A stretch of 35,092 nt of DNA from a virus, in the IMG/VR virus record IMGVR_UViG_3300032293_000273, positions 1-35,092 of that record. One strand, written 5' to 3'. Numbering within the stretch: position 1 is the stretch's first letter; every line of letters begins with the position of its first letter. The position numbers and the translations under genes are program-made. The notes under the pieces were generated by a model that saw only the letters and a list, made by a program, of their open reading frames with translations, was not told the origin of the DNA and did no database searches. Below are positions 3,414 to 34,430 of the stretch, piece by piece.

Positions 3414-3890
3414 TTATTTTTTCCATTCACAGTAGATGTTCTGATACTTACTGTCAATGTTTATGTAATGGGATAGTAATCTAGACGTTGCACGAGAGGG
3501 CTTGAAATACCACAGGTCTATGTTTCTGATTCTTGTAGATTCTTTGAACCACATCCAGCCAAAGAAAAATCCTTCTGTATGATAGTTGAAATTGTATATG
3601 CGTTTACCTTTCTCCTTGGTCTTTTTCCAATCTATAGGTAAGTTAACCACCTCTTTACCATCTACAGTTTTTAGCTTTCTTCTCTTCTTCTTGTTAATGG
3701 AGAACTCTCCAAAGCCAAAAGGAAGTCTTGCTTTCTCTCCTGTTTCTAGAATGTAGTTTTTAAAATAGTCATTATATAGATATATAATGTTTTTCCACTG
3801 GTCAAATGTAACCTTTACAGTGGGGTTTTTATTGCAAAAATTATTATAGTTTTCTTTACTAGAACTTCTCCAATCTATTTTTGTACGCAT
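3414..3890 (-). CDS. Conserved crAss-like structural-block protein, basic
   Basis: 158 residues, Lys/Arg/Trp-rich. The stretch LPFGFGEFSINKKKRR (about 57-72) recalls the IHF/HU-type signature GFGxF followed by basic residues. The C-terminal part (FFFGWMWFKES, LWYFKPSRATSRLLSHYI) matches a pattern I remember from a conserved gene beside the ring proteins in crAss-like phages. Its start meets the stop of the 3890-4621 gene. It may bind DNA or be a small virion component. I cannot name a function, and the IHF resemblance may be only local. Confidence 0.65.
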   Translation of the reverse strand: MRTKIDWRSSSKENYNNFCNKNPTVKVTFDQWKNIIYLYNDYFKNYILETGEKARLPFGFGEFSINKKKRRKLKTVDGKEVVNLPIDWKKTKEKGKRIYNFNYHTEGFFFGWMWFKESTRIRNIDLWYFKPSRATSRLLSHYINIDSKYQNIYCEWKK

Positions 3891-4621
3891 TAGTTAGTGT
3901 TGGTTGTATTTGGTGCTTGACCATCAACCCCATCTGATGTTTGATCTGTCTTCAATCTGAAATAAGTTGATAACAGTTTTTGAGATGTTAGTTCTAGCAC
4001 CTGCTTTTCTAAATATCCAGGGCAGCCATATTCCTTATCTAAAGGATTCTTGCAGAGCTCATCTGTAGTATAGTCTACATTACCACAGCCACACTCAGGA
4101 AACATTATTTCATTAGGTACATCTTCTTCAAAGAAAGCAGAAATTCTTGCTGCCTTTAGCAATGGATTACTGATGTATAAGTAACCACCATTGGCTATCC
4201 AATAGTATTGTTCATTCTTAATGATAGGAAGTTTCAATAGATTTAAGTATCTGTTGATAGTAATCTCTTTGAATCTTTTCCCTTGTCCACCCATAGCGTT
4301 GATAGAATATACACCCTGGATAACATACTGATAGTTTCCTTCTGTAATGCGAGGAAGTTTGTATCTGCTTCTTGCTACGTTACATGGGTCTACATATTCA
4401 CAACATTCAGAAATAGGAACTTCTATCATCTCAAGGCATGGGATGGTAGTAAACAAAGTATCAGTAGCCCAAAGCTTTCTGAGATTTGTCTCACGTTTAA
4501 CTAATAACTGTGTGTTGTTCTTAATCTCAGAAGCAACAACCCTATCAGTGATAAGGTTATCTGTGGACAGCAACTTGTGCATTCCACGAACGTCTGAAAC
4601 TAATTTCCTTAATGTTGCCAT
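3890..4621 (-). CDS. Neck/tail ring protein, crAss-like
   Basis: 243 residues starting MATLRKLVSDVRGMHKLL. The N-terminal segment (about 1-65) is helical and contains LVKRETNLRKLW. The middle (VIQGVYSINAMGG, YYWIANGGYLYISNP) is strand-rich. The C-terminal helix LELTSQKLLSTYFRLKTDQ resembles the closing helix of head-tail adaptor proteins. The tail is Thr/Asn-rich and probably flexible. Between about 185 and 210 there are Cys-rich turns (CGCGNVDY, YGCPGY). It shares a base with the phosphoesterase stop and lies in the ring-protein cluster. Virion role likely, exact ring position unknown. Confidence 0.65.
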   Translation of the reverse strand: MATLRKLVSDVRGMHKLLSTDNLITDRVVASEIKNNTQLLVKRETNLRKLWATDTLFTTIPCLEMIEVPISECCEYVDPCNVARSRYKLPRITEGNYQYVIQGVYSINAMGGQGKRFKEITINRYLNLLKLPIIKNEQYYWIANGGYLYISNPLLKAARISAFFEEDVPNEIMFPECGCGNVDYTTDELCKNPLDKEYGCPGYLEKQVLELTSQKLLSTYFRLKTDQTSDGVDGQAPNTTNTN

Positions 4622-5871
4622 TATAAATATTGTTTGAATATATTTGTCATTCCTGAGCCTTGTTCTATTAAGAAGGCAGTCACTTCAGCCTTAGACATTA
4701 CGTGACCATTCTTATCATCCCAAAGACTCTTAGCACTAGAGAATGCTGGAATTTGGTAAAATTTAATACCATTGAAATCTTGACTAACTTCATGGTGTTT
4801 ATCTCCTGTGAATATGTAGAAGTTGTCATGGAAAGACCATGCTTCTCTAAATTCTATTGGAAATAATGCTGCAAGCTTAGCTGGCTTTAAAGCATCTCCA
4901 TGATTAAACATCAATGCTGAACCACCATAGCTTACATACTTTCTATACTTAGGACTCACATCAAATGTAAGTCTGTTTGTATTTCTAAAATAGGTTTGTA
5001 ACCAAGTAACTAAATGCCATCCTACATACTCATCATGATTACCTGCTACATAGATTACATTTACATTCTCAGCGTATTGTAATAACATTGTAATCATTAA
5101 TACCTCGTGGTCACATATGAAGCTAAATGAATCTTGATATGTGTGAGTGTTTGTTTGAGGAGTGCCTTTAGTTGTAGTTCCTGTGAACTCACTATTGAAT
5201 TCATCAGAACCAATAATATATGTAATTTGCTCTAGGTTATTTGAAAGCTGTGCTTGATTAGCAATAAGCTCCACCTTGTACATGATAGAAGCTAGTCTAT
5301 CAGCGATGTTGTTATTACCATCAATATCATATTTGTTCAAATGAGAGTCTTGCTTATTGATAACCAACATGGCAGGAAACTTATGTTCAGAGAACTTAGG
5401 ACTCATAACTTCCTGACTAACAGGCTGATATGATGCTAAAAAGTCTACAAAACTATCTTGAAAAACTTGTTCTGTAGACTTCTTACCTAACCATGCTTTG
5501 ACTTGCCAATGAGGACTGTTTCCATTCCCCCAGAAGTTCTGTACATATTTAGTTATTTCCCATTTCTCTGTGTCTATGTGACACTTCTCAATTAGTTCAT
5601 CTAAGCTCTTAACCTCTTCGCTAAAATTAGCTACCACCTCTCCTGTACCCTTTATAAGATCTTCTGTAAACTTAACCACTCTATCTTCTAAGTCTGCTAT
5701 GTAGTTTCCTATCTCTGCGTCTTCTTGTGCGTTTTCTTCTTTTCTGATGTCTGCTAACAGACCATCTATCTCTGCCTCTGTAATTCCTAGCTTATCAGCA
5801 TAGTATTTTTTTGATTTCTTCCAATGCAGCATCTGTTGAAGTTGCTCCAAAAGACTTTGGTTTTCAGGCAT
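4621..5871 (-). CDS. Calcineurin-like metallophosphoesterase
   Basis: 416 residues. The five metal-site blocks of the calcineurin-like family appear in order: INKQDSHLNK (D-x-H), IIGSDEFNSE (GD-type), YVAGNHDEY (GNHD), LMFNHGD and FTGDKHHEV (GxHH-type). The N-terminal 110 residues are helical and acidic (LGITEAEIDGLLADI looks like a helix-turn-helix), separate from the enzyme domain. By family the enzyme cleaves phosphodiester or phosphomonoester bonds with two metal ions; the substrate is unknown. It begins its own transcription unit behind a promoter at 5900-5931 and is followed without a gap by ring proteins, so it is made late and may be packaged or act in assembly. Some crAss-like phages carry such a gene at a similar place, from memory. 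Confidence 0.85.
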   Translation of the reverse strand: MPENQSLLEQLQQMLHWKKSKKYYADKLGITEAEIDGLLADIRKEENAQEDAEIGNYIADLEDRVVKFTEDLIKGTGEVVANFSEEVKSLDELIEKCHIDTEKWEITKYVQNFWGNGNSPHWQVKAWLGKKSTEQVFQDSFVDFLASYQPVSQEVMSPKFSEHKFPAMLVINKQDSHLNKYDIDGNNNIADRLASIMYKVELIANQAQLSNNLEQITYIIGSDEFNSEFTGTTTKGTPQTNTHTYQDSFSFICDHEVLMITMLLQYAENVNVIYVAGNHDEYVGWHLVTWLQTYFRNTNRLTFDVSPKYRKYVSYGGSALMFNHGDALKPAKLAALFPIEFREAWSFHDNFYIFTGDKHHEVSQDFNGIKFYQIPAFSSAKSLWDDKNGHVMSKAEVTAFLIEQGSGMTNIFKQYL

Positions 5872-28394: not shown

Positions 28395-30347
28395 ATGAAT
28401 GTATTGATTTATGACATTGAAACACTCAAGGAGTTGTTTCTTGTGGTGGTGTACAAACCAGACACAGATGTTACATATGAATTCCAAGTGAGTGGATGGA
28501 CTAATCAATTAGATGCATTCATTAGATTCACAGAGGAACATGATGAACATTATTGGGTGGGCTATAATAATCTACGCTTTGATAGTCAAGTAGTTGAGCA
28601 TGTGCTCAGGAACTATGAACATTGGCATGAGATGAGTGGATTAGAGATATGTGCCATCATAGCACAGAAAGCTGCAGATACTATTCATGATGCAAACTTT
28701 GATGTATTTCCTGAGTATAAAGAAGAATGGTTGAGTCTTAAGCAATTAGATTTGTTCAAGATTAATCATTATGATAACAAGAATAGACGTGTGAGCCTGA
28801 AGAGATTGGAGTTTGAGATGGACTTTGAGAACATTGAAGAGATGCCAATACACCATCTTAAAGAGAACATGACCAAGGAAGAAGTTATTGAGACCATCTA
28901 CTATTGTCACAATGATGTGCAGGCTACATATGAGTTCTACAAGATAACTACAGGTGATACAGAACATCCATTGTATAAAGGTAATAACCAAATAGAACTG
29001 AGAGAAGATATATATGAAGAGTTTGGTATTCCTTGCTTAAACTATTCTGATTCCAAGATTGGTGATGAAATGATTAAGAAGTTTTATTGTGAACAGAAGG
29101 GTATACAGTATTCTGATCTTCCAAAGAAAGGACTATTCAGAAAGGATGTGAGAGTTAAAGATTGTATTGCTGATTATGTAGCATTCCAGACACCAGAGCT
29201 ACAAGAGTTCTTAAAGAGAATTAGCAAAGAACGTCTTACAATGAAGGACGAGTTTAAAGAATCATTAGAGTTTTATGGCAACACATACACCTTTGCAAAG
29301 GGTGGTCTTCACACAGAGAACAAGCCTAAAGTATTTGAAGCTGATGATGATACACTCATTGTAGATTGGGATGTGTCTAGCTATTATCCTGCCATCATCA
29401 TTAACAATGGTAAATATCCTGGACATCTAGGTTCTGAATTCCTTAGAGGTTACAAGACAATGTTTGATAAAAGACTTGAGCTTAAACCACTAGCTAAGAA
29501 GGACAAGAAGATTAAAGGTATTGTTGGTGCTCTAAAGCTTGCTGTTAACTCTGTGTATGGTAAGAGTTCTGATATGCAGTCGTGGATCTATGATAGACAA
29601 CTAACTATGTTTACCACTATTACAGGTGAACTCAGTCTTCTCATGCTCATCGAAGCATATGAACTAGCTGGCATACATGTTATATCTGCTAATACAGATG
29701 GAGTGACAATACTTGTAAAAAATGCAAGTTTTGATACTATGACTGCTATTAACAAGTGGTGGATGGATGTAACACAATATGAGCTGGAACGCACTGATTA
29801 TCAGAAGATTATATTCTCAACAGTAAATGACTATTTAGCAATTAAAACAGATGGAGAAATTAAAAAGAAAGGTGATTTCCTCACTGACTTTGAGCTACAC
29901 AAGAATAAGTCAGCTAGGATTGTACCTATTGCTCTCGAGCGTTATTATGTTAATGATATCCCTGTGGCTGATACCATTCGTAATCATACAAACATATTTG
30001 ACTTTTGCCTCAGGCAGAAGGCAAGCAAAGACTTTCACTACGAAGGTCACAGCAAAGAAAATAAAACAATCTACAACAAACTGATTAGATATTATGTATC
30101 TAACACTGGTGAGAAGTTATTGAAGGTGAAGAATGAAAACTCAGATAGTGGTGCAGCTGATGTAATACAAGTGGAGGCAGGTGAATGGGTGATGCATGTA
30201 TGCAATTATCTATTACCAGACCATCCATTAGACAACATCAATCATGCATATTATATTGAGCGTGCTGAGTCAATCATCAATAAAATACAGTTTGCAGGTA
30301 GAAAGAGAAAGATTATTGTTAACCCACAACAAATGACATTATTCTAA
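28395..30347 (+). CDS. Family B DNA polymerase
   Basis: 650 residues. Exonuclease (proofreading): Exo I YDIET (D7, E9), Exo II GYNNLRFD (N59, D63), Exo III YCHNDVQ (D174). Polymerase: motif A DVSSYYP (D326, S329, Y331), motif B KLAVNSVYG (K381, N385, Y388), motif C NTDGV (D435) in place of the usual DTDS. It is short for the family, with only about 50 residues between motifs A and B. It replicates the phage genome with the DnaB-like and DEIH helicases downstream. Some crAss-like phages have a family B enzyme and others a family A enzyme. All catalytic acids are present. Confidence 0.9.
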   Translation: MNVLIYDIETLKELFLVVVYKPDTDVTYEFQVSGWTNQLDAFIRFTEEHDEHYWVGYNNLRFDSQVVEHVLRNYEHWHEMSGLEICAIIAQKAADTIHDANFDVFPEYKEEWLSLKQLDLFKINHYDNKNRRVSLKRLEFEMDFENIEEMPIHHLKENMTKEEVIETIYYCHNDVQATYEFYKITTGDTEHPLYKGNNQIELREDIYEEFGIPCLNYSDSKIGDEMIKKFYCEQKGIQYSDLPKKGLFRKDVRVKDCIADYVAFQTPELQEFLKRISKERLTMKDEFKESLEFYGNTYTFAKGGLHTENKPKVFEADDDTLIVDWDVSSYYPAIIINNGKYPGHLGSEFLRGYKTMFDKRLELKPLAKKDKKIKGIVGALKLAVNSVYGKSSDMQSWIYDRQLTMFTTITGELSLLMLIEAYELAGIHVISANTDGVTILVKNASFDTMTAINKWWMDVTQYELERTDYQKIIFSTVNDYLAIKTDGEIKKKGDFLTDFELHKNKSARIVPIALERYYVNDIPVADTIRNHTNIFDFCLRQKASKDFHYEGHSKENKTIYNKLIRYYVSNTGEKLLKVKNENSDSGAADVIQVEAGEWVMHVCNYLLPDHPLDNINHAYYIERAESIINKIQFAGRKRKIIVNPQQMTLF

Positions 30348-30703: not shown

Positions 30704-31252
30704 ATGGGAGCAAGTTGGTTTCAACAAGTAGGATATGGTAAAACATTAGATAATGCATACAAAATTGCTTGTGAAGAAGCAGAAGTAGAGTATGGACATC
30801 AAGAAGGATATAATGGTACAATTAGCACTACAACGTATGCTAAAGATATTACACAAGAATATCATAGAAGTAAACTAGATTTAGAACAATTTGTACGTTC
30901 TAAGATGGAAATGTTAAACAAAAGAGACTGTTGTGCAATTTGCTTACAGGAGCCTGTTGGAAATAAGAACAAAACTAAGTCTCAAGTGGAGCATATATTT
31001 ACACCAGGTACAAAGAAATGGGTACTTAAATACACAGTTAGACATGGTGATCATTTTATTGGTTCATGGAATACAAAAGGTGATGCTGTAAAAGATGCAC
31101 GTAGGTATACAGAGAACAATCAAGTGGCTACAACAATAGAAATGGAAAAAGTTTTAGACAAGGGTAGTAACAGAGTAGCTATAATAAAATACAAGAAAGC
31201 ACTCACAGAGAGACCAGGTAGATGGATGTTCTTTGGTTACGCAGCAGAATAA
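30704..31252 (+). CDS. Conserved phage protein (YGKT-x-AYK / GYNGTI type), unknown
   Basis: 182 residues. The N-terminus (VGYGKTLDNAYKIACEEAE, YGHQEGYNGTISTT) is a pattern I know from many phage hypothetical proteins. Residues about 77-90 contain CCAICLQEPVG, a possible metal-binding Cys pair. The C-terminal half is strand-rich (KKWVLKYTVRHGDHFIGSW). No function is known to me. Confidence 0.7.
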   Translation: MGASWFQQVGYGKTLDNAYKIACEEAEVEYGHQEGYNGTISTTTYAKDITQEYHRSKLDLEQFVRSKMEMLNKRDCCAICLQEPVGNKNKTKSQVEHIFTPGTKKWVLKYTVRHGDHFIGSWNTKGDAVKDARRYTENNQVATTIEMEKVLDKGSNRVAIIKYKKALTERPGRWMFFGYAAE

Positions 31253-31266
31253 TTAAAATTAAATAT

Positions 31267-31617
31267 ATGAACAAAGAATTTATTCCTTATGAACAAGCAT
31301 TAGAACTTAAAGAATTAGGTTTTGATGAATCCTGTTATTATGATTATAATTTTGGTGGTGAGATTACTAATAAATGGGCTATTGGACTTGTTCCTGCACC
31401 ACTCTACCAACAAGCATTTAGATGGTTTAGAGAGAAATATGATTTGCATGTTTCATTTGGAAGATTATATGATACTGCTGAAACAAAAAAGTATGTAATT
31501 GATACATATAATGAAATATGTTCTTATGAAGTTGATTATAGTGGTGGACACTCTACTTATGAAGAAGCAGAACTTGCTTGTCTTAAAAAATTAATTGAAA
31601 TAGCTAAAAACAAATAA
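31267..31617 (+). CDS. Conserved phage protein, unknown (YEQALELKELGF type)
   Basis: 116 residues from MNKEFIPYEQALELKELGF. The frame opens at 31222, but that start overlaps the previous gene and adds a poor N-terminus; the ATG at 31267 fits the familiar family start. The middle has APLYQQAFRWFREKYDLHVS and the end a helix with EEAELACLKKLIEIA. The family is common in phages and has no assigned role. Confidence 0.75.
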   Translation: MNKEFIPYEQALELKELGFDESCYYDYNFGGEITNKWAIGLVPAPLYQQAFRWFREKYDLHVSFGRLYDTAETKKYVIDTYNEICSYEVDYSGGHSTYEEAELACLKKLIEIAKNK

Positions 31618-31619
31618 CC

Positions 31620-31643
31620 ATGAGTGATATATCAGCATGTTAA
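31620..31643 (+). pseudogene. Possible fossil start of the displaced zinc-protein gene
   Basis: Two nt after the preceding stop, ATG opens seven codons (MSDISAC) and stops. The gene at 32387, beyond the endonuclease, starts MADISCC, matching five of seven residues. The junction taacc-ATG is also the usual spacing here. A remnant left when the endonuclease gene inserted is a plausible reading, but seven codons are little evidence. Confidence 0.35.
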
Positions 31644-31668
31644 TTAATTGTTAAATGACAGATATTAC

Positions 31669-31699
31669 TTTGTGCTTAACGAATTTATACATATATTTG
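31669..31699 (+). promoter_or_regulatory. Perfect Bacteroidota promoter before the endonuclease gene
   Basis: TTTG (31669-31672), exactly 19 nt, TATATTTG (31692-31699), matching every consensus position. The ATG of the endonuclease is 13 nt after the -7, as in the promoter at 22093. Confidence 0.75.
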
Positions 31700-31712
31700 T
31701 AAAAAATATAAC

Positions 31713-32375
31713 ATGAAAAAGTTAAAGTTAGTTGAAGGTGATATAGTAAATAGTCATAATATAATTTTTATAAGGGATATAGTTTCCTGTGTTGATGTTT
31801 CTGGTAGAAAAAGAAGAAGAGCTTTATTTAAATGTCATTGTGGTAATTTATTTGAATCTAGGCTTAGCGACATATTCAAAAAAAGAACTAGTTGTGGTTG
31901 CAACAAAGGAGTTAAACCAAATGTATACAATGAAGGAGATTTAATCAATGGTATTAAATTTATAAAAACATTAGGTACAATAAATTATTCTCAAAGAGCT
32001 ATTTTTGAATGTCCTATTTGTAATAAACATTGGGAGAGTTTTGTATCAAATATTCAAGGAGGACATACTAAATCTTGTTGTAAAGTAAAAAGAGGATGGT
32101 CAAGATCACAATGGACTAATTTATCTAATACAGCAACTTTATATAAAGTTAGAATGTACAATGATAATGAGTCTTTTATTAAAATTGGAATTACTAAAAA
32201 CTCTATCAACAAAAGATTTAGTGGTATTCCATACAAGCATGAAGTTATTAAAACAATAACAGGAGATTCTGGATATATATATGATCTAGAAAATAGAGTT
32301 AAAACATTATTTAAAAAACATAAGTACACACCATTAATTAAATTTAAAGGTGAAACTGAATGTTTTAAACATTAA
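31713..32375 (+). CDS. GIY-YIG-type homing endonuclease with two zinc ribbons
   Basis: 220 residues. N-terminal part: two Cys clusters, FKCHCGN (C41, C43) with SCGC (C61, C63), and FECPICN (C100, C103) with SCC (C122, C123), i.e. duplicated zinc-binding DNA-contact units. C-terminal domain: LYKV (143-146), IKIGIT (156-161), Arg168 in NKRFSG and GETECF with Glu216, the layout of a divergent GIY-YIG nuclease (T5orf172/MUG113-like). Such free-standing enzymes cut sites in related phages and spread their own gene. Base composition is more AT-rich than its neighbours, it has its own promoter, and it separates two genes that otherwise pack tightly. Site and cofactor are unknown. Confidence 0.7.
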   Translation: MKKLKLVEGDIVNSHNIIFIRDIVSCVDVSGRKRRRALFKCHCGNLFESRLSDIFKKRTSCGCNKGVKPNVYNEGDLINGIKFIKTLGTINYSQRAIFECPICNKHWESFVSNIQGGHTKSCCKVKRGWSRSQWTNLSNTATLYKVRMYNDNESFIKIGITKNSINKRFSGIPYKHEVIKTITGDSGYIYDLENRVKTLFKKHKYTPLIKFKGETECFKH

Positions 32376-32386
32376 AATTAAAAATC

Positions 32387-32644
32387 ATGGCTGATATTTC
32401 TTGTTGTAATGGTGGTAGTTGTCCATTAAGACTACACTGCCACAGATACACTTGCCCTAAAGAAGAATTAGGGCAATCTTATTTTAAGGACCCTCCATAT
32501 GAAATGAGCATGATAACAAGTGAGATATTTAACTCAGTTGGTGTAATGACATTCACGTGCCCATTCTTTTGGAACAATCAAGAACTCAAAGATGAAAGAC
32601 CAAAGTTTGAAAATAATAGAGGATTGGGAGAGGGAATCTCTTAA
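32387..32644 (+). CDS. Cys-rich small zinc-binding-like protein
   Basis: 85 residues. Cys at 6, 7, 12, 18 and 24 (SCCNGGSCPLRLHCHRYTCP) and a later one in FTCPFFW. The N-terminal pattern CxxxxCxLRxxCxRY is familiar from small phage proteins of unknown role. The start resembles the short frame left of the endonuclease, so this gene was probably adjacent to the 31267-31617 gene earlier. Confidence 0.7.
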   Translation: MADISCCNGGSCPLRLHCHRYTCPKEELGQSYFKDPPYEMSMITSEIFNSVGVMTFTCPFFWNNQELKDERPKFENNRGLGEGIS

Positions 32645-32783
32645 AGATTTAGTATATTTGCAAGAAGAAATAACTTTAATGCAACAAGAGGTTGATAAAC
32701 AGCCTGCTATGATACAAGTTATTGATAAGGACAAAATACTAAACAGAAGACATGAACATCAAAATGACGTTCTCCCATTTTGA
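32592..32783 (+). CDS. Small coiled-coil protein, unknown
   Basis: 63 residues, charged helices (KIIEDWERESLKDLVYLQEE, LMQQEVDKQPAMIQVIDKDK). It overlaps both neighbours by 53 and 32 nt in other frames. The gap it covers would otherwise be about 107 nt. Could be real or partly spurious. Confidence 0.5.
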   Translation: MKDQSLKIIEDWERESLKDLVYLQEEITLMQQEVDKQPAMIQVIDKDKILNRRHEHQNDVLPF

Positions 32784-33372
32784 GGAGCTACTTAAGTCTG
32801 GGTATAGCCTAGACATGCTATTTTTCATTATGTTAGTTGAAGATGGATCAGACGTAGACAGTCTGTGTGAAGCACCAAAATTAAAGATGCTACACCAAAC
32901 TGTACGCAGAAAAGGTCTATTGTCAGAAGCTAATAAAGTTACTATTCTTGGTAAGGAACTACTTGCTTTTCTAAATGAAGAGAAGGAAGTTAAAGTGCCT
33001 AAGAAGAAGAAAACAGACACTGACTTTGATAAGTGGTGGGGTTTGTATCCAGGTACAGACACCTTCACTTATAGGAGTCAATCATTTACAGGTACACGCA
33101 GCATGCGTACAAAGAAAGAAGAATGCAAGATGAAATACAATAACATCCTTGCAGAAGGTGACTACACAGCCAAAGAGCTATTAGCAGCGTTGGAGTATGA
33201 AATCTTACAGAAGAAAGAGAATTCAATCAAGACAAAGACTAATAGACTCACATTTATGCAGAACAGTCTCACCTATCTCAATCAGAGGTCATTTGAACCA
33301 TTCATTGAACTAGTGAGAGAGGGTAAGACTGTTAAAGAGTCTGCTGAACCAATTAAAGGAATGGATATATGA
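32752..33372 (+). CDS. Replication-module protein, possible helicase loader or initiator
   Basis: 206 residues. The first about 80 (FSHFEELLKSGYSLDMLFFI, LHQTVRRKGLLSEANKVTIL, GKELLAFLNEE) look like a winged-helix domain. A basic linker KVPKKKKTD follows. Residues about 95-200 contain FDKWWGLYPGTDTF and AALEYEILQKKENSIKTK, then NRLTFMQNSLTYLNQRS. The order winged helix - linker - helical domain directly upstream of a DnaB-like gene recalls DnaD/DnaT-like loaders. This is inference from place and layout. ATG at 32764 is an alternative start. Confidence 0.6.
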   Translation: MNIKMTFSHFEELLKSGYSLDMLFFIMLVEDGSDVDSLCEAPKLKMLHQTVRRKGLLSEANKVTILGKELLAFLNEEKEVKVPKKKKTDTDFDKWWGLYPGTDTFTYRSQSFTGTRSMRTKKEECKMKYNNILAEGDYTAKELLAALEYEILQKKENSIKTKTNRLTFMQNSLTYLNQRSFEPFIELVREGKTVKESAEPIKGMDI

Positions 33373-34430
33373 GTTTTGAAGATTTAAAACGAGAAGTTCA
33401 AGCTGGCCTAGATGGTAGAAACAATGGCATACCTATGGGCTTTGAGAGATTGAACAAATACATTGGTATCAGAAAAGGTATGTACACTCTGATTGGTGGC
33501 CTCACTGGGTCAGGTAAAACTAGCTTTGTAGATGATGCTTACGTTTTAAATCCATTTGATTGGTTTATCAGTCAGAAAGACCCAGAAGTGAAGTTAAAGA
33601 TCATATATAGATCTATGGAGCGTAGCAGAACATATAAGTTTGCCAAGTGGATCAGTAGAAAGATATTTCTAGACCATGGAGTAATCATACCTGTATCCAA
33701 GCTATTAGGTTGGACAGATAAGATGAACCATGATGAGCACGATCTGTTCCTGATGTATGAAGATTATATGGATAGTATGAAAGATGTAATCACCATCATT
33801 GATGGACCAGAGAACCCAATTGGTATAGCAAAACATCTGAGAGACCATGCATTAGCTAATGGTGTAATGGAAGATGTAGATCAATACAACAAGAAGTATA
33901 TCCCTAATAATGATAATGAAATCACTATTGTTGTTGTTGATCATATAGGCTTGTTGAAGCCAACAAAAGACCATCCCACAAAGAAGCAATCCATAGATAA
34001 GATGTCAGATGAGCTTAGATATGCTCGTGACATGTATGGATATACTCCTGTGATTGTCAGTCAGTTCAATAGAGACATATCCAATCCTATTAGGATTAAG
34101 AATGGTGACGTAGAACCACAGCTAGAAGACTTTGCTGAGAGTTCTCAGACACAGAATGATGCTGATGTTGTCCTAGCACTGTTTGACCCCATGAGGTATA
34201 AGGTACCAGACCCTAGTGGATATGACGTAAACAAATTAAGAGATGAGTTTGGTGCAAAGTATTTCAGATCATTGAGACTAATTAAGAATAGTTATGGTGA
34301 AGATGATGTGAGAATAGGACTGGGCTTTCTTGGCCACGTTGGTATGTTCAAAGAGCTACCAAAGGTTAAGTATATGAATGAGAACGTGTATGATGAAATT
34401 ATTAATAAAACTTTCTTTTTAAACAAATGA
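33369..34430 (+). CDS. DnaB-like replicative helicase (ATPase domain)
   Basis: 353 residues, only the RecA-type motor domain of DnaB. Walker A GGLTGSGKTS (K50, T51); the catalytic Glu in YRSMERS (E84, equivalent to SLEM of DnaB); Walker B ITIVVVDHIG (D191); motif H3 VIVSQFNRD (Q232). The N-terminal primase-binding domain of DnaB is missing, so loader or primase contacts must be made differently. The ATG overlaps the preceding stop by 4 nt. It probably unwinds DNA ahead of the family B polymerase. Confidence 0.85.
   Translation: MSFEDLKREVQAGLDGRNNGIPMGFERLNKYIGIRKGMYTLIGGLTGSGKTSFVDDAYVLNPFDWFISQKDPEVKLKIIYRSMERSRTYKFAKWISRKIFLDHGVIIPVSKLLGWTDKMNHDEHDLFLMYEDYMDSMKDVITIIDGPENPIGIAKHLRDHALANGVMEDVDQYNKKYIPNNDNEITIVVVDHIGLLKPTKDHPTKKQSIDKMSDELRYARDMYGYTPVIVSQFNRDISNPIRIKNGDVEPQLEDFAESSQTQNDADVVLALFDPMRYKVPDPSGYDVNKLRDEFGAKYFRSLRLIKNSYGEDDVRIGLGFLGHVGMFKELPKVKYMNENVYDEIINKTFFLNK

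Follow-up and report, generated by a model that had tools for sequence, protein, structure and literature searches.

A phage homing endonuclease-like cassette that probably carries a replacement start for the gene it enters

Free-standing homing endonucleases of phages usually lie between genes or split them, and a host gene must tolerate the damage (PMC2988022). The Seg and Mob enzymes of T4-like phages resemble the element described here in being phage-borne, free-standing, of GIY-YIG type (Seg) and able to spread into nuclease-free relatives; they are encoded in intergenic positions and cleave hundreds or thousands of bases from there, or else they split a gene, as in Aeh1 mobE and T4 mobA (PMC2988022). 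Unlike these, the insert at the present locus lies within its target gene, at codons 6-7, and supplies a new start. The nearest precedents are endonuclease ORFs of fungal mitochondria with replacement gene ends, mobile ORFs that bring in a foreign C-terminal gene end and leave the native end stranded (PMC3630166, citing Allomyces atp6). In Allomyces atp6 and in Glomus atp6, atp9, cox2 and nad3, as here, an endonuclease ORF lies in a coding gene together with a foreign replacement piece, the native piece is stranded, and the chimeric gene was gained by horizontal transfer (PMC3630166). The hallmark of that type, a foreign part carried along and a native part stranded, was also found at our locus; however, the fungal cases concern the 3' (C-terminal) end of mitochondrial genes and mostly LAGLIDADG enzymes (one GIY-YIG), whereas here the 5' end of a phage gene is replaced, the enzyme is T5orf172/GIY-YIG-like and the stranded piece measures only 5-7 codons. 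Because the 5' and not the 3' end is replaced, the locus is best described as a mirror-image variant that works like the Allomyces/Glomus type without being a member of it.

Tremella introns carry N-terminal duplications, and are similar in being mobile elements with a duplicated, apparently foreign N-terminal gene part (PMC7315562), but those are intron-type or co-transcribed mitochondrial inserts, whereas no intron was found here. Among phages, the PHROG 681 endonucleases (e.g., Acinetobacter phage Ab5, MT836429) share the order of Cys-rich repeats followed by T5orf172, with conserved R and E; in the two PHROG 681 copies tested outside our set (L081 and L083), unlike in the DNA studied here, no stranded start of the downstream gene was detected. 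In the open-access literature we found no report of a phage nuclease carrying a new start for its target.

The DNA analysed is a single virus record, referred to below as the window (Table 1). A sequence-only reading had proposed that a homing endonuclease gene with its own promoter was inserted into or beside the start of a zinc-protein gene, leaving a fossil start, and this insertion reading is supported by our analysis. The MSDISAC frame does begin 2 nt past the upstream TAA (31615-31617), the gene on the far side does begin MADISCC, with the nuclease ORF in between, and the insert region is AT-rich as described (23-28% GC, versus roughly 30-40% in the flanks). A second fossil-type frame, MTDITLC, had escaped that reading. 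Its term "zinc protein" reflects the Cys pattern, the sole basis of the inference, and the family concerned, PHROG 20586, has no assigned function; we refer to it as the Cys-rich gene, which as a whole, rebuilt start included, spans 32387-32644. The 3' end of the upstream neighbour gene (31556-31617, ending in YEEAELACLKKLIEIAKNK) has approximately 87-90% DNA identity to gene ends in L001, L002, L004 and L005; the genes sharing this YEEAELACLKKLIEIAKNK end otherwise differ, as a conserved C-terminal module on varied small genes.

Table 1. Features of the window and of the locus around the nuclease gene.
Feature	Position	Strand	Remark
Virus record (window)	35,092 bases		Source IMG/VR
Phage DNA polymerase, PHROG 1252	28395-30347		Neighbour gene in window
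DnaB-like helicase	33369-34430		Neighbour gene in window
Upstream neighbour gene	31222..31617	+	Alternative start ATG at 31268 possible
Fossil start 1, ATGAGTGATATATCAGCATGT, MSDISAC then stop	31620..31640	+	Start of the recipient's own Cys-rich gene
14-nt TAATTAATTGTTAA	31641..31654	+	Resembles leader before gene start in L001/L005
Fossil start 2, ATGACAGATATTACTTTGTGC, MTDITLC	31655..31675	+	Between fossil 1 and nuclease
Promoter-like TTTG-N19-TATATTTG	31669..31699	+	Spans fossil 2 and leader
Nuclease gene, 220 aa (220 codons)	31713..32375	+	PHROG 681 "endonuclease"
Short A-rich spacer, part of cassette	32376..32386	+	Precedes rebuilt start
Replacement 5' end, ATGGCTGATATTTCTTGTTGT, MADISCC	32387..32407	+	Carried by cassette
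Recipient's own Cys-rich gene body, from codon 8	32408..32644	+	Match to L004

A scan of IMG/VR for the Cys-rich gene returned eight close records (L004-L011), none of which has the nuclease at this place, and in all of which the gene start is unsplit. In L004, the homologue of the upstream gene ends and is directly followed by the Cys-rich gene with ATGTCAGATATATCAGCATGCAATGGTGGTAGTTGTCC, exactly the arrangement expected of a relative lacking the nuclease, with the upstream stop followed by the start that is a fossil in the window. The L004 junction reads ATGTCAGATATATCAGCATGC and then at once AATGGTGG, the left part corresponding to the window fossil and the right part to the window gene body. 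BLAST aligned window positions 31555-31639 with L004 4937-5020 at 87% identity across the gene junction, broke off at 31639 and restarted at 32405 at the adjacent L004 position. Codons 3-7 of fossil 1 match L004 at 14 of 14 nt, with divergence afterwards; the remaining differences between the two starts (AGT for TCA, TGT for TGC) leave Ser and Cys unchanged. From codon 8 onwards, the window gene is identical to L004 over the first 60 nt (60/60) and agrees at 219 of 234 nt overall, whereas its rebuilt seven-codon start agrees at only 13/21 nt and is closest to MPDISCC alleles such as L027; such a stretch next to 60/60 identity has a probability of about 3e-5 under the local identity. Judged from these alignments, the seven codons beyond the window nuclease are foreign. 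The insertion thus lies within the coding sequence, immediately behind the first Cys codon, and not beside the start. Of the two fates proposed earlier for the target gene, rebuilding stands, although the new 5' end is a foreign one travelling with the nuclease and was not duplicated locally from the fossil.

The same short stranded frame was found in none of the nuclease-free relatives compared, and the whole records of L004, L005, L009, L010, L011 and L070, which may be incomplete, gave no nuclease match. Taken across records, the site is polymorphic for presence and absence, being filled in the window, L001, L002 and L086 and empty in L004-L011 and L070. Another small Cys-rich ORF (MATSTCCGAQTTMPEIGICPDC...) lies between the upstream and target genes in L005 (4878-5000) and also in L006-L008, suggesting that genes are often gained and lost at this junction. 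In L009, a homologue of the window's upstream gene is located elsewhere, after the DNA polymerase (3812-4165), which suggests that small genes are shuffled around the locus.

A search with the nuclease protein retrieved two further filled records, L001 and L002, at 63% identity to the window nuclease; both have a stranded MDITMCL frame upstream of the nuclease, and a downstream Cys-rich homologue beginning MDITLC. Comparison of these two records, which are closely related but have different gene bodies, indicates what moves. Their fossils differ at 3 of 18 nt, all synonymously, as expected from divergence as gene starts before insertion, whereas their rebuilt starts are identical. From the fossil end to the rebuilt Cys codon, only 2 of 734 nt differ (99.7% identical), compared with 47 of 192 nt (24%) in the gene body beyond that codon, evidence of horizontal spread between different recipients. 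A two-change-point fit delimited a conserved block at 4713-5452 (lnL gain of 72 over one rate), of which the left edge is bounded only to 4713-4799 and the right edge to 5445-5452, which comprises the Cys codon and its predecessor. At third codon positions, the nuclease has 1/220 differences and the gene body 26/64 (Fisher P = 3e-18), and protein-level selection therefore cannot account for the contrast between cassette and body. The near-identical cassette beside a divergent body implies that the rebuilt start moves together with the nuclease, independently of the gene that it now begins, and the end of the block at the Cys codon implies a mobile unit made up of the nuclease and a replacement gene start.

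The empty allele of the L001/L002 locus was recognized in L070, where the L001/L002 upstream gene (79% identical) is directly followed by ATGCCAGACATTACTAAATGT, the same gene body and the same downstream gene. At its insertion point, L070 (3320-3346) has two extra bases (TGT-GC-AAAGGG) that break the frame from MPDITKC; they may have been left by repair of a cut or introduced during assembly. Translation might resume at an internal ATG (3337), giving MCKGDNC. A third lineage, L086, was found by a motif search for the GYIYDLEN box of the nuclease and encodes a protein 57% identical to that of the window. Its fossil ATGCCCGATATAACAAT (MPDIT) overlaps the stop of the preceding gene and its rebuilt start ATGGACATAACGAAATGC (MDITKC) overlaps the nuclease stop codon; the fossil matches MPDIT only and has lost the Cys codon, and an empty counterpart of L086 was not found. 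The downstream genes match PHROG 20586 in L001 (E 5e-12) and L086 (E 2e-6), and weakly in the window (E 0.002). These comparisons show a single nuclease lineage established in three gene contexts, each time at the first codons of the same gene family. All four copies with fossil, nuclease and rebuilt start are on metagenomic contigs; scans of GTDB genomes detected no copy of the nuclease in bacterial genomes, and in named phages only distant relatives were found.

The N-terminal half of the nuclease is Cys-rich, with zinc-finger-like modules (CxCG...CGC, CPxC...CC), and the C-terminal half is a T5orf172/MUG113, GIY-YIG-like domain. The window protein matches PHROG 681 (E 8e-23), and the window, L001 and L002 proteins match PF10544 (T5orf172) at E 0.008-0.011, which falls short of Pfam's cut-off; the more distant relatives L081-L084 exceed the cut-off. 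NCBIfam and anti-phage defence models gave no match. The whole-protein model was unusable (pLDDT 55), and the C-terminal domain was modelled alone (pLDDT 75). Its matches in BFVD are phage T5orf172 proteins and intron-associated endonucleases (TM about 0.75-0.81), with the T5 Orf172 protein of Bacillus phage BCP8-2 as the top viral match (TM 0.81, E 1.1e-6), and it has no matching solved structure in the PDB. The earlier description as GIY-YIG-like is thus borne out by sequence and predicted fold, only by way of the divergent T5orf172/MUG113 branch. Y144, K157-x-G159, R168 and E193 are invariant across six diverse members, and the conserved Tyr, Arg and Glu are assumed, by analogy, to form a catalytic active site. 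Between the window and L001, the nuclease has a dN of 0.26 against a dS of 1.03, indicating that the protein is kept under purifying selection; dN is below dS in the body of the Cys-rich gene as well.

We consider it highly probable that this free-standing T5orf172/GIY-YIG-like protein is a homing endonuclease that targets the start of PHROG 20586 genes, with cleavage deduced from the position of the join, and that its mobile unit includes a replacement start. The mobile unit would consist of the leader with its promoter, the nuclease ORF and the foreign first 6-7 codons of the target gene. In an empty allele, the nuclease would cut at or beside the first Cys codon, and repair would copy the cassette in, fusing the foreign start in frame to the recipient body. 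The alignments fix this right-hand join at the Cys codon, while the repair route is an extrapolation from it. The old start persists as a short dead frame ahead of the nuclease and, with the target split and the foreign start unlike the native half-site, re-cutting should stop. As traced by the alignments, the stranded start, its insertion point, the foreign replacement start and the joint movement of nuclease and start are each documented.

Chance can be rejected as the origin of the fossils. The motif ATG(NNN)GAY-ATH-[ST]-N-TGY has an expected frequency of about 1e-6 per base under a Markov model of the region, giving a chance of about 1e-4 (about 7e-5) in the window leader, and about 2e-4 occurrences of the shorter MxDIT match are expected in the L086 leader. 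In the loci retrieved when the motif was scanned, it occurred only at family gene starts or adjacent fossils. Fossil 2 of the window is closest in sequence to the fossil of L002 and to MPDISMC alleles. It was probably stranded in an earlier recipient that then served as the donor, and TAATTAATTGTTAA is probably donor flank; the window cassette would then have arrived with about 35 nt of donor flank, fossil 2 included. A search for a donor with the MTDITLC start gave seven matches, none of them convincing; among them, L071 and L074 have Cys-rich genes starting MTDITLCVNTKCPLK, preceded by a different leader. Homology does not account for the left join in the window. An improbable alternative, itself a variant of the same mechanism, is that two insertions were nested, a first cassette after fossil 1 having provided MTDITLC and a second having entered after MTDITLC, with the first nuclease deleted down to 14 nt. 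With nested insertions, the position of fossil 2 behind fossil 1 and ahead of the nuclease would need no illegitimate left join; however, they require a near-complete deletion that left no remnant, and the 14 nt resemble the ordinary leader of the gene. Donor flank carried along with the cassette remains the best reading of fossil 2 and the 14-nt leader.

The short frames might also be no fossils at all and encode functional leader peptides, retained because they regulate nuclease translation, which we regard as quite unlikely. The synonymous-only differences between the L001 and L002 fossils would be consistent with such peptides, as would the L086 fossil frame (4349-4405), which continues for 18 codons until its TGA overlaps the nuclease ATG and suggests that this fossil now serves translational coupling. 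Against this, the frames match the start of the neighbouring gene in each lineage, differ between lineages and are absent as separate frames from the empty relatives. A later regulatory role is compatible with a fossil origin. The nuclease's own promoter, as claimed by the sequence-only reading, has a candidate in TTTG-N19-TATATTTG, which we take to be a Bacteroidota-type pattern, although chance alone would produce 1.5 matches of this kind per window. TATATTTG occupies the same position in the nuclease leaders of the window and of L001/L002. In L001 (4706-4762), a 17-bp hairpin covers the fossil end and the leader, with its outer stem over the nuclease start codon (-27.3 kcal/mol, z -7.6) and TATATTTG in its 3' arm; the window leader has no such hairpin (z -0.8). 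Hairpins of this kind, together with a promoter that bypasses them, are described for T4 I-TevI, segB and Aeh1 mobE (PMC2988022), and hairpin and promoter control recalling I-TevI and mobE is offered here as a lead only.

The two similar starts that flank the insert could alternatively result from an ordinary intergenic nuclease insertion that left a local tandem copy of the gene start, as staggered-cut repair might do, and would then involve no foreign start. This is very unlikely, and is already largely refuted by L001 and L002, where the fossils are different and the rebuilt starts are not, so that the rebuilt start must move with the nuclease; in addition, the rebuilt and native starts of the window differ at 8 of 21 nt and the divergence ends abruptly at codon 8. 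Least credible of all is a group I intron or other spliced element holding the nuclease, with MSDISAC spliced to NGGSCPL and the downstream ATG incidental: intron-borne nucleases are common in phages, and fusing fossil 1 with codon 8 would yield a flawless native protein, MSDISACNGGSCPL, but positions 31000-33000 contain no Rfam intron or ribozyme match at E up to 5. Apart from the nuclease ORF, the insert has only about 100 nt, which could not accommodate a group I core. The downstream start, moreover, keeps the reading frame, is present in every lineage and overlaps the nuclease stop in L086, where the upstream piece lacks the Cys codon.

More tentatively, and on balance doubtfully, such elements may form a distinct phage class of "start-swap" homing cassettes specialized on one conserved gene start, in which the foreign start would both repair the gene and remove the cut site, and the stranded start would double as a binding site or RNA leader controlling the nuclease (a promoter element inside fossil 2 in the window, the hairpin in L001, the overlapping frames in L086). 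A replacement start would solve the problem of host-gene damage without an intron or intein, allowing the element to sit in coding sequence, and deletion of the cassette would be costly because the target gene would then lose its start. Phages would thereby gain a counterpart to the hybrid genes of fungal mitochondria, and a start-carrying cassette would explain short dead reading frames that precede nuclease genes.
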